From assembly GCA_945874665.1 (NCBI GenBank), contig CAMCHJ010000007.1, positions 38,550 through 102,549 on the forward strand: a stretch of DNA of 64,000 bases, written 5' to 3'. The position numbers and the translations under genes are program-made. Within the stretch, counting starts at the first letter, position 1; each line of letters begins with the position of its first letter. Positions 41,875 to 44,953 of this stretch are shown piece by piece. Below the pieces are notes generated by a model. It saw only the letters and a program-made list of their open reading frames with translations. It was not told the origin of the DNA and did no database searches. The stretch comes from Chitinophaga pinensis (lineage in GTDB: Bacteria; Bacteroidota; Bacteroidia; UBA7662).

Positions 41875-41882
41875 TATCTTTG
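41875..41882 (+). promoter_or_regulatory. -7 element TATCTTTG, 3 nt before the TDO start
   Basis: Perfect TAnnTTTG with spacing 3 (AGC); supports the ATG at 41886. Confidence 0.6.
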
Positions 41883-41885
41883 AGC

Positions 41886-42839
41886 ATGGAGCTCCAACCT
41901 GAAATCCTTGAAAAACTGCAGCGTCTTGAAAAGAAGTACGCAGCCATGGGCCAAGACATGCAATCGTACCTCGAAGGCCTGATTTATACTGATTATTTGC
42001 CGTATTGGGACTATGTACACCTCGATGTGCTACTCAATTTACAGCATCCGCGCACCGATTTACCCGATGAAAAGATCTTCATCATGTACCACCAAATTAC
42101 CGAGTTGTACTTCAATTTGGTGCTGCATGAGCTCGACCAGCTGGGAGAAGCCGCGCAGCCTGAAGCGAGCTGGGTACTGGCTCGGGTAACCCGCATCAAC
42201 CGTTATTTTCAGGCCCTCAAAACCTCCTTCGGCATCATGGTCGATGGCATGGAAAAGGAGCAGTTCCTCAAATTCCGCATGGCGTTACTCCCAGCCTCGG
42301 GCTTTCAAAGTGTGCAATACCGTAAAATTGAGATATGCGCCACTGATTTTGTGAATTTGCTGGATAAGGACCACCGCACGGCCGAAGTGTTGAGGGCGCC
42401 TTTGAGTGAGCAGTTCGAATACATTTATTGGAAAAAGGGTGCCACAGAGCTGAGCACCGGGCGAAAAACCCTCACCCTCAAGCAATTTGAGAAAAAGTAC
42501 CAAGAAGAACTCATCCGACTGGCTGAAAAGCAGCAGGAACTCAACTTATATGAGGTGTACCGCAGGCTCCCCGAGGGACCTGAAAAAGGCAAAGTAGCCG
42601 ACGCCTTGCGTGAATTTGACGTTCATGTAAACGTAAATTGGCCGTTGGTGCATTATAAATCAGCCGTGCGCTATTTGCAGCAACGTCCTGAGAGTATTGC
42701 CGCCACAGGAGGCACCAACTGGCAGAAATACCTGCCTCCCCGCTTCCAAAAGCGGGTATTTTTCCCTGAGCTTTGGTCTGCAGCAGAGCTTGATGAGTGG
42801 GGCAAAGGCTGGGTGGAAGAAACGCTGCTGGGGCAATGA
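41886..42839 (+). CDS. Tryptophan 2,3-dioxygenase
   Basis: About 317 residues, an all-helical heme dioxygenase that opens the indole ring of L-tryptophan to N-formylkynurenine. The family pattern is seen in YWDYVHLDVLLNLQHPRTD, then MYHQITELYFNLVLHELDQL with the distal His region, and SFGIMVDGMEKEQFLKFRMALLPASGFQS containing the substrate-contacting stretch. The ORF track begins at a TTG two codons earlier; the ATG is preferred because the TTG overlaps the -7 element. Its TGA overlaps the ATG of the WYL regulator (ATGA). Later steps of the kynurenine route appear downstream. Confidence 0.9.
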   Translation: MELQPEILEKLQRLEKKYAAMGQDMQSYLEGLIYTDYLPYWDYVHLDVLLNLQHPRTDLPDEKIFIMYHQITELYFNLVLHELDQLGEAAQPEASWVLARVTRINRYFQALKTSFGIMVDGMEKEQFLKFRMALLPASGFQSVQYRKIEICATDFVNLLDKDHRTAEVLRAPLSEQFEYIYWKKGATELSTGRKTLTLKQFEKKYQEELIRLAEKQQELNLYEVYRRLPEGPEKGKVADALREFDVHVNVNWPLVHYKSAVRYLQQRPESIAATGGTNWQKYLPPRFQKRVFFPELWSAAELDEWGKGWVEETLLGQ

Positions 42840-43729
42840 AAGACCCTGGTAAGCTCCTGCGCCTCTTTCGTGAAATGAACCTTTTGGCAGGTAGCAAGCG
42901 TGGTTATACCGTAAACGAGCTGGCCGACAAGATTGGCGTGAGCTACCGAACCGTTTACCGCGATATCAAAATATTTGAAGAAACGGGTTTTGAAATCATT
43001 CAAAATCCCCAGACCAAGCGCATGCGTTTGGCCCATGCGGGCGAAATCAGTGATAAGATGAACTTCAACAAAACCGAAGCCGGACTGTTGGAGCAGGCCT
43101 TGGTATCGCTGCCTGAGAGTCCTGTAAAACAAATGCTCTTCGATAAGGTGCATGCCCTCAGCGGTAGCGTACAGCAACTCAAGAGCTTGCAGCGCCAACA
43201 AACTGCCCATAATTTCCAGCTTTTAGCGCAGGCCATGCGCGACAAAAAGCAGGCGTTGTTGCTCGACTACAACTCGCCGAGCTCGCAGAGTGTGAGCAAC
43301 CGCCTGGTGGAGCCCTTTGCTTTTAATGAGCGCCTTGATACCGTGTATGGCTACGAGCCTTCTAGCCGCAAAAACAAATTTTTCAAACTAGAGCGCATCG
43401 GTCAGGTGCGCTTAGAGCAAATCGGCTGGCAATTCGAATACATGCACGAGCAGCAAGAAACCGATATTTTTGGCATTCCTTTTAGTGAAGAAAAACTGGT
43501 AGTGCGCTTGCTTTTAGGACGGCTCGCCAGCAACCTCTTGCGCGAAGAACACCCAGCTGCGCTGCCGTTTTTGCAGCCTCAGCCTGATGGCCGAAACCTG
43601 CTCGAATTGAGGGTTGCGGATTTTCGGGGGATTGGTCGTTTTACTTTAGGATTGGTCGATGACCTCGAAGTGTTAGGTCCACTTGACTTTAAAACCTACC
43701 TAACCAAACTAGCAAAATTATTGCAGTAA
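42836..43729 (+). CDS. WYL-domain transcriptional regulator
   Basis: About 297 residues. An N-terminal winged helix-turn-helix of the DeoR/HTH_11 type, GYTVNELADKIGVSYRTVYRDIKIFEE, is followed by a central region and a WYL-like ligand domain (about 130-220: LLLDYNSPSSQSVSNRLVEPFAF, with KFFKLERIGQV) and a C-terminal extension. The canonical W-Y-L triad is not clear. The ORF track start at 42797 would run deep into TDO; the ATG overlapping the TDO stop is more plausible. Coupling to TDO suggests control of tryptophan breakdown. Its C-terminus is 178 bases upstream of the small-peptide cassette with a perfect palindrome, another possible target. Confidence 0.85.
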   Translation: MKDPGKLLRLFREMNLLAGSKRGYTVNELADKIGVSYRTVYRDIKIFEETGFEIIQNPQTKRMRLAHAGEISDKMNFNKTEAGLLEQALVSLPESPVKQMLFDKVHALSGSVQQLKSLQRQQTAHNFQLLAQAMRDKKQALLLDYNSPSSQSVSNRLVEPFAFNERLDTVYGYEPSSRKNKFFKLERIGQVRLEQIGWQFEYMHEQQETDIFGIPFSEEKLVVRLLLGRLASNLLREEHPAALPFLQPQPDGRNLLELRVADFRGIGRFTLGLVDDLEVLGPLDFKTYLTKLAKLLQ

Positions 43730-43850
43730 TTTTTTGTGGGCGGCAGTGGTGCTCCAGCCAAACAGTTAATTACGCCTTTATTAAGCTGTTCGAAGTACTT
43801 GAAGTACAAAATAGACAGCTGGTTAACTCTATAAATAGCTTCAATATAAC

Positions 43851-43867
43851 TTGACAAGACGTGTCAA
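43851..43867. promoter_or_regulatory. Perfect inverted repeat TTGACA-N5-TGTCAA
   Basis: Six-base arms with a five-base centre, located 39 bases before the 45-residue ORF. Direct repeats TTCGAAGTAC/TTGAAGTAC lie some 50 bases further upstream (about 43790-43807). It is a candidate operator for the WYL regulator or an unknown factor. Confidence 0.5.
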
Positions 43868-43906
43868 TTCATGCCGATACCTTAGTATTATCAAAAGGAA
43901 AAAGAC

Positions 43907-44044
43907 ATGAAAAAGCACATCCAAAAGAAAGCACTACCCATCCTCATCATTGAGGACGTATTAGATTGTGTACCTGCCGACATCACCGATCTCGAAGCCT
44001 ACTTCGCCGGCGAAACTGAAGAAATCATGACCCAAGCTGCCTAA
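43907..44044 (+). CDS. Small ORF, 45-residue acidic-tailed peptide
   Basis: Too short for the ORF track. ATG is preceded by AAAAGGAAAAAGAC, a plausible A-rich ribosome site. The peptide begins with a basic MKKHIQKKA, has a hydrophobic core LPILIIEDVL with one Cys at residue 21, and a strongly acidic tail DITDLEAYFAGETEE. No signal peptide or lipobox. It ends one base before the ATG of the 118-residue ORF, so the two are almost certainly co-translated if real. I do not recognise it; antitoxin-like, precursor peptide and leader peptide are all possible. Confidence 0.5.
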   Translation: MKKHIQKKALPILIIEDVLDCVPADITDLEAYFAGETEEIMTQAA

Positions 44045-44045
44045 T

Positions 44046-44402
44046 ATGCAAGCGGCTACACTCCCCACATTTTGGCGCTGGACTGGCTGGTCGATGAAAC
44101 GCCCCCAAGCCCGCAACCTGCAACTGCTGCTCGATACCCATCTGGTAGTGCCAGCGCGCTTCCAGGGCCGCTACCGAGTTGATAAAAAAACACGCTTGCG
44201 ATATACCTATGACCGCAAACTAGAACTCGCCCAAGTGGCTGTGGTGCAAGGTTACCAAACCCTCGGCTACCTGCCCCTGCCCGACGCCCAACTAGTTTAT
44301 GGCTGGCGGCAATCCAAGCTCAAATACAGCTTCCGTATACTCGAAGCAGGCACCACTGCGTTCGGCAACACGGCGCTGCGACTGCGAATAACGATGCCAT
44401 AG
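44046..44402 (+). CDS. Hypothetical 118-aa protein, possibly HIRAN-like
   Basis: A basic protein of unknown family starting one base after the 45-residue ORF. The segment LRYTYDRKLELAQVAVVQGYQTLGYLPLPDAQLV (about residues 53-86) faintly resembles the HIRAN core, in which a DPNAVAV strand is followed by G-x-LGY(V/L)PR; the key Pro and Asn are missing, so this is only a hint. The N-terminus is Trp- and Arg-rich (FWRWTGWSMKRPQARN). No membrane segment. HIRAN domains bind DNA 3' ends, which would suggest nucleic-acid binding. The next gene begins 110 bases later. Confidence 0.55.
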   Translation: MQAATLPTFWRWTGWSMKRPQARNLQLLLDTHLVVPARFQGRYRVDKKTRLRYTYDRKLELAQVAVVQGYQTLGYLPLPDAQLVYGWRQSKLKYSFRILEAGTTAFGNTALRLRITMP

Positions 44403-44512
44403 GCAGAGGAACGGCTTGTTCGGCTCGCATTGCAGATTTGATCGGGACGAATTTTGCATGTTTGCTACAGACTTCGTTTGCGAATGTGACTTACGGCAGC
44501 GTACTTTGTGAC

Positions 44513-44953
44513 ATGGCTACCATTTCAACCAGCAGTGCACCGAATCCGGTGGGACTGTATCCGCACGCGCGACGCGCTGGTAATTTATTGTTCCTATCGG
44601 GCATTGGTCCCCGTGCCGCTGGCACCGATGCCAACGACCCACAGGTACCGGGCTTGCAGTTAGACAAAAACGGGAATTTCGAAGCCTTCGATTTTGAAGC
44701 GCAAGTGCACCAGGTGCTCGCCAATGTAAAAGCCGTGCTTGAAGCGAGCGGCGCTCGCATGGAAGACCTTGTAGACATCACTGTGTACCTCACCGATATG
44801 AAGCGCGATTTTAAAACCTTTAACCGCGTGTATGCCGAGTATTTTAGGGAAATGGAGCCCAAGCCGTGTCGTACTACAGTAGAAGTTGGTGCCCTGCCCA
44901 CCGCCATTGCCATTGAGCTCAAGTGCATGGCCGTTATCCCCGAAATATTATGA
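44513..44953 (+). CDS. RidA-family protein, probable 2-aminomuconate deaminase
   Basis: About 146 residues of the YjgF/YER057c/UK114 fold. YPHARRAGNLLFLSGIGPR at the start and ASGARMEDLVDITVYLTDM with FNRVYAEYFREMEPKPCRTTVEV in the second half fit the RidA family, and the N-terminal stretch resembles 2-aminomuconate deaminases more than housekeeping RidA. That enzyme releases ammonia from 2-aminomuconate, the product of the ALDH encoded nearby. The Arg of the RidA active site is in PCRTTVEV. The ORF track extends upstream to a TTG; the ATG at 44513 is the natural family start. Its TGA overlaps the next ATG by four bases. Confidence 0.8.
   Translation: MATISTSSAPNPVGLYPHARRAGNLLFLSGIGPRAAGTDANDPQVPGLQLDKNGNFEAFDFEAQVHQVLANVKAVLEASGARMEDLVDITVYLTDMKRDFKTFNRVYAEYFREMEPKPCRTTVEVGALPTAIAIELKCMAVIPEIL

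Follow-up and report, generated by a model that had tools for sequence, protein, structure and literature searches.

Two WYL-domain activators, DriD and PafBC, are the closest described counterparts of the locus reported here, a cassette of two small genes in a 64,000-nucleotide (nt) stretch of contig CAMCHJ010000007.1 (the window), which forms part of a 2.29-Mb draft genome from the Bacteroidota. DriD, the DNA-damage activator of Caulobacter crescentus that acts independently of LexA, binds sites that all stand at a single distance from the -10 element and overlap a poor -35 element, and its regulon joins repair genes to didA, a gene for a small protein (PMC12340889). PafBC, a WYL-WCX damage activator, binds just upstream of the -10 element and controls the mycobacterial DNA-damage response (PMC11804915). 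Nothing was known of the SOS response in Bacteroidota before the description of S24 repressors in 2021; a non-canonical S24 LexA runs an SOS regulon of recA, dinB and other genes in other Bacteroidetes, through dyads with a 5-nt (N5) spacer (PMC8565304). HIRAN domains, to which the larger protein of the cassette appears related, occur among other places in putative HipN antitoxins and HipL kinases (PMC8262856).

The cassette encodes proteins of 45 and 118 amino acids (aa) and lies behind a palindromic box, next to a gene for a WYL regulator with a helix-turn-helix (HTH) domain (Table 1). This regulator shares its HTH-WYL architecture with DriD, its best structural match, and the pseudo-palindromic DriD site, which replaces the -35 element at a fixed distance (PMC12340889), matches the rigid box spacing and replaced -33 element seen here, features that also recall PafBC and SiwR (PMC11804915, PMC10693628). 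The two systems differ in phylum, in target sequence and in the boxed genes, which here include recA, dinB, recD and an exonuclease; binding of single-stranded DNA (ssDNA) by the protein studied here is suggested by analogy. PafBC is a heterodimer of two proteins with an RxxR motif, whereas here a single WYL protein with KxxK would face a box of two half-sites. From these comparisons and from the analyses below, all of them sequence inference on draft genomes, we propose, with a probability of about two in three, that the two genes form an effector operon within a DNA-damage response of this Bacteroidota order, which the adjacent WYL protein, and not LexA, probably controls.

Table 1 Features of the cassette and its surroundings in the window
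Feature	Position	Strand	Basis
Tryptophan-2,3-dioxygenase superfamily gene	41880-42839	+	Pfam PF03301, E 1.5e-25; below TIGR03036 equivalog cut-off
HTH_11-WYL-WCX transcription regulator, candidate box activator	42836-43729	+	Pfam HTH_11, WYL, WCX; best PDB matches of model DriD, PafBC
WYL-linked damage box TGACA-AGACG-TGTCA (putative)	43852-43866	+	inside 17-bp palindrome 43851-43867
-7 promoter element TACCTTAG, Bacteroidota TAnnTTTG type (presumed)	43878-43885	+	sequence; 10 bp after palindrome; same spacing at all tabulated sites
45-aa small protein, C-terminus QAA	43907-44044	+	in-frame conservation, dN/dS ~0.1; ATG 53-56 nt after box in 13 genomes, including recA-linked small ORFs
118-aa HIRAN-like protein	44046-44402	+	hhalign, AlphaFold2 and Foldseek (see text)
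RidA/L-PSP family gene, downstream neighbour	44489-44953	+	Pfam PF01042, E 6e-28 (ORF 44438-44953)

A small gene paired with a HIRAN-like gene

The two open reading frames (ORFs) lie between the WYL regulator gene and a RidA-family gene, and their coordinates and strand, their TAA-T-ATG junction and the A-rich, Shine-Dalgarno-like stretch AAAAGGAAAAAGACATG 5' of the first ATG are exactly as described in an earlier note made from the sequence. We regard the 45-aa ORF as a real gene because it is conserved in frame with a third-position bias: between genomes G000 and G006, 20 of the 26 nucleotide differences fall at third codon positions, with a dN of 0.10 and a dS of 1.00, indicative of purifying selection. 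The 118-aa gene evolves faster (dN 0.24 for the same two genomes). It is found in 7 of the 17 genomes of the family, with a divergent copy in another family of the same order (G143). Wherever both genes can be read, eight genomes in all, they are adjacent, the small ORF ending within about 30 nt of the 118-aa homologue; none of the genomes examined had the latter without a small ORF in front of it. In all eight the small protein ends in Ala-Ala, encoded by differing alanine codons. In a further genome, G002, a contig end leaves only the box and the first part of this small ORF. The small partner in G143 (L028, G143:C64, before position 2664) begins with a zinc-ribbon-like CxxC...CxxC arrangement unlike that of the other small partners and still has the -AA end. 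The RidA-family gene is on the opposite strand in G016 and so probably lies outside the system.

Neither protein matched a Pfam, NCBIfam, PHROG or PADLOC model. Beyond the family, a class-wide profile search returned only ordinary HIRAN or unrelated proteins, among which no paired small ORF was noticed. The cassette is chromosomal, in species of two families, and a phage or plasmid origin was rejected, as the phage, plasmid and viral collections searched contained no homologue.

By sequence profile and predicted fold we assign the 118-aa protein to the HIRAN domains as a diverged member, which bears out the suggestion in the earlier note that it might hold a degenerate HIRAN core. The profile of its family matches proteins elsewhere in the class, both of the two that were scanned being Pfam HIRAN proteins, and hhalign aligned it to Pfam-positive HIRAN proteins at 94.2% (E 1.2e-7). 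When the AlphaFold2 model (mean confidence score, pLDDT, 78.8) was searched with Foldseek, 3k2y and the HIRAN domains of Rad5 and HLTF were among the best PDB matches, at weak E-values of 0.07-0.6 and probabilities of 0.75-0.99; 3k2y is itself matched by the Pfam HIRAN profile. We call the protein HIRAN-like because the Pfam model (PF08797) itself fails, with no match at E up to 1 for the window protein or up to 10 for its relatives; a scan of its own genome likewise returned no Pfam HIRAN. With the HIRAN domains of HLTF, Rad5, bacterial solo HIRAN proteins and HipN/HipL it shares the predicted fold and a YD..A..V...G..IGYLP core, and it differs from them in lying below Pfam detection and in its genetic coupling to a small protein.

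A box shared with recA and repair genes

Taken by itself the palindrome TTGACA-AGACG-TGTCAA is at chance level, the window containing 18 perfect dyads with 6-bp arms and a 5-nt loop against 15.6 expected, yet we consider it real because it is kept in the same place in nine genomes. There, including the partial G002, a box (T/G)TGWCA-N5-TGWCA precedes every copy of the pair, 54-56 nt before the ATG of the small ORF, with one half-site base off in G006. The earlier note's idea of a two-gene cassette with its own operator is thus well founded. It had also pointed to TTCGAAGTAC-type direct repeats; these exist in the window (43789-43807), but no relative was found to have both of them in front of the two genes, and for that reason we set them aside as operators.

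Downstream of the palindrome stands TACCTTAG, which we take to be a -7 element from its resemblance to the Bacteroidota consensus. The box, with the consensus TGWCA-nnAGA-TGWCA, is placed exactly 10 bp upstream of this element, a spacing kept at all 34 tabulated sites, and 32 of the 34 have AG in the spacer, though the search left the spacer free. Some of these sites were chosen by the pattern itself; the unbiased evidence is therefore that of recA genes located by protein, of the spacer AG and of a search free of spacing. The last of these, for TGACA-N5-TGTCA across the family, gave 19 sites. Ten precede the pair, recA (G016), dinB (G000, G006) or a DUF2130 gene (G000), and at each of the ten a -7 element of AnnTTTG type follows after exactly 10 bp; eight others fell in unrelated places and had no -7 arrangement, and the remaining one was not inspected. 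When recA genes were located by protein search, the box was present at the same spacing with at most one mismatch in 14 of 14 family genomes, and was equalled in 0-10 of 300 shuffles.

A fixed-spacing search allowing up to two mismatches, read locus by locus, added recA in most other genomes of the family, recD in genus g2, a ligase-associated exonuclease (G000, G006) and DUF2130 in G006. Over 17 family genomes the fixed-spacing pattern matched 70 times, compared with 33 for a reversed control. The identities of the boxed genes as DNA polymerase IV (DinB), the TIGR04122 ligase-associated DNA damage response exonuclease, RecD, RecA and DUF2130 were confirmed, and the set varies by genus. Because its box also precedes these genes, the pair appears to belong to a regulon of the DNA-damage type. 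In G003 (L119, G003:C8) the box is present twice at recD, the copies being separated by 75 bp. By eye, a one-mismatch box could be read at recA of G143, from the second family. Viral contigs gave no signal: the box matched 108 times and its reversed pattern 94 times, and a simple sequence test placed none of the box matches close to a WYL-type gene.

In genus g3 (L076, L077, L079, L080, L120) an ORF of 68-76 aa (YWADCIEMLGPDD.../...GLL) stands between the box and recA, 53-54 nt from the box and thus nearly as in the pair.

The earlier note had considered a toxin-antitoxin module, a peptide-maturation system or a phage-sensing switch, readings that our results do not support. The small first gene, its tight coupling to the second and its C-terminal -AA would suit a toxin-antitoxin module, or a switch for defence against phages, in which the unstable small protein is the antitoxin; HIRAN domains occur in putative antitoxins (HipN) and in HipL kinases (PMC8262856), and WYL regulators control defence loci. 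We consider this reading very improbable: the box is common to recA and repair genes, neither gene matches a PADLOC, PHROG or toxin-antitoxin model, the phage, plasmid and viral sequences searched carry no copy, and in g3 a small ORF placed alike is followed by recA and not by a HIRAN gene.

Candidate regulators of the box

The neighbouring WYL protein is most likely the regulator of the box, judging from the comparisons that follow, and the link to it that the earlier note had drawn is probable. Its matches to Pfam HTH_11 (2.2e-9), WYL (1.2e-4) and WCX (4.2e-5) are all above cut-off. We regard it as a better candidate than the S24 protein because of its presence across the order, its structural matches and the adjacency of box and WYL genes outside the order. 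WYL matches were found in 20 of the 21 genomes of the order. Compared with the PDB, the model of the protein had DriD and PafBC at ranks 1-11, ahead of BrxR/CapW (DriD E 2.5e-13), with a predicted template modelling score of only 0.37 that leaves the domain orientation uncertain; the WYL profile also matches PafBC and DriD by sequence. In a class-wide search of 395 genomes the exact box occurred 29 times, 17 of these within the order, and 6 of the 12 matches outside it (5 independent loci) lie directly beside unrelated HTH-WYL genes. The chance of such adjacency is estimated at about 1e-6, given an assumed, unmeasured maximum of 20 WYL genes per genome.

At one of these six, L129 (G284:C1:546659-546692), the box follows a WYL-domain gene and stands 10 bp before a -7 element with an apparent cas12a gene 57 nt further, possibly a WYL-switched Cas12a locus. 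In other Bacteroidia families (L133, L134, L139, L132, L135) CCCC-TGACA-N5-TG(T/A)CA occurs with the same -7 spacing at YafY-type WYL genes, where it lies in front of the regulator gene or of a gene resembling those for SnoaL, glyoxalase or SRPBCC proteins.

The box could instead be the operator of the S24 LexA-like repressor or a paralogue, in which case the two genes would be ordinary members of an SOS regulon. In G000 a gene for an S24 HTH protein adjoins dnaE-dinB, and N5 dyads are typical of the S24 family, whose motif drift is documented (PMC8565304). The promoter of the S24 gene itself, however, has the published CTAA-N5-TTAG (PMC8565304) and no TGWCA box in G000 and G006, so that the homologue here, as far as examined, keeps at its own gene the motif of the Bacteroidetes S24 LexA. 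At the pair and at recA the dyad is TGWCA-N5-TGWCA instead of CTAA-N5-TTAG (GGA-N5-TCC was not searched for), the only CTAA-N5-TTAG at a recA promoter being a one-mismatch site in G005. No S24 match was found in the draft genomes G005, G008, G009 and G013, yet their recA genes have the box; outside the order, box matches adjoin WYL and not S24 genes; and spacing to the -7 element as rigid as this is unusual for repressor sites. Taken together, these observations make control by S24 unlikely. Canonical LexA was also considered and rejected, PF01726 being absent from G000 and giving only two weak matches in the order. In the cluster of SRAP / S24 LexA-like, dnaE and dinB genes at L159 (G000:C12:33000-41500) the S24 gene has CTAA-N5-TTAG and dinB the TGWCA box, and two damage regulators thus seem to share one cassette.

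Several observations weigh against control of the pair by the WYL protein within a damage response. The essential arginines of PafB and PafC (RxxR) are here the invariant lysines K181 and K184 (KxxK), with the charge kept. In the three genomes of family f2 the recA box is degenerate at best and not above chance, despite the presence of a WYL orthologue, and in G010 (a draft genome, 96% complete) the box precedes recA with no WYL match at E<=0.001. The genomes of g3 have the WYL gene and the recA box and lack the HIRAN-like gene, and the small proteins of different genera showed no significant homology by hhalign, a D-x-I/L-E/D-x-V-P-x-D pattern among them being suggestive. In G006 the pair, with its box, is about 30 kb away from the WYL gene. 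The WYL gene is mainly linked to the dioxygenase-family gene, which suggests that its product may have another job; the stop of the latter gene overlaps the WYL start (ATGA), and the two genes remain side by side throughout the order. These last two points would fit a different dimeric activator of DNA repair genes, neither WYL nor S24, with the WYL neighbour a coincidence, but the recurrence of box-WYL adjacency at five independent loci outside the order makes such an activator quite unlikely.

A possible WYL-run damage response

If the WYL protein does control the pair, damage or stalled forks would expose ssDNA, which the HTH_11-WYL-WCX protein may bind and thereby become active, by analogy with DriD and PafBC. 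A WYL dimer would then bind TGWCA-nnAGA-TGWCA, in place of a -33 element and 10 bp from the -7 element, and recruit the housekeeping RNA polymerase, so that recA, dinB, recD, the ligase-associated exonuclease, DUF2130 and the operon for the small and HIRAN-like proteins would be induced together. At damaged forks the HIRAN-like protein would probably bind ssDNA or the ends of DNA. Its short-lived partner or regulator would probably be the small protein, which is translated first and carries a ClpXP-like -AA tail. Since genus g3, which has no HIRAN-like gene, places a small ORF and then recA behind the box, we speculate that the small protein may also act alone in the damage response, for instance as a checkpoint factor.

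A bolder form of this proposal, which we hold tentatively and at somewhat less than even odds, is that recA and the damage response of the order are controlled mainly by a WYL activator and not by LexA. The pair would then be an undescribed effector of fork or DNA-end protection or of a checkpoint, in which the small protein is a short-lived, damage-induced regulator, coupled to recA in one genus.

Some clades of Bacteroidota still have no assigned SOS regulator, and our literature search found no WYL-controlled recA regulon in the phylum, which is not proof that none has been published. If the WYL box at recA is what it appears to be, a third phylum would have its core DNA-damage response under ssDNA-sensing WYL activators, and the locus yields a concrete sequence for the operator, a candidate for its regulator and a pair of effectors new to study.
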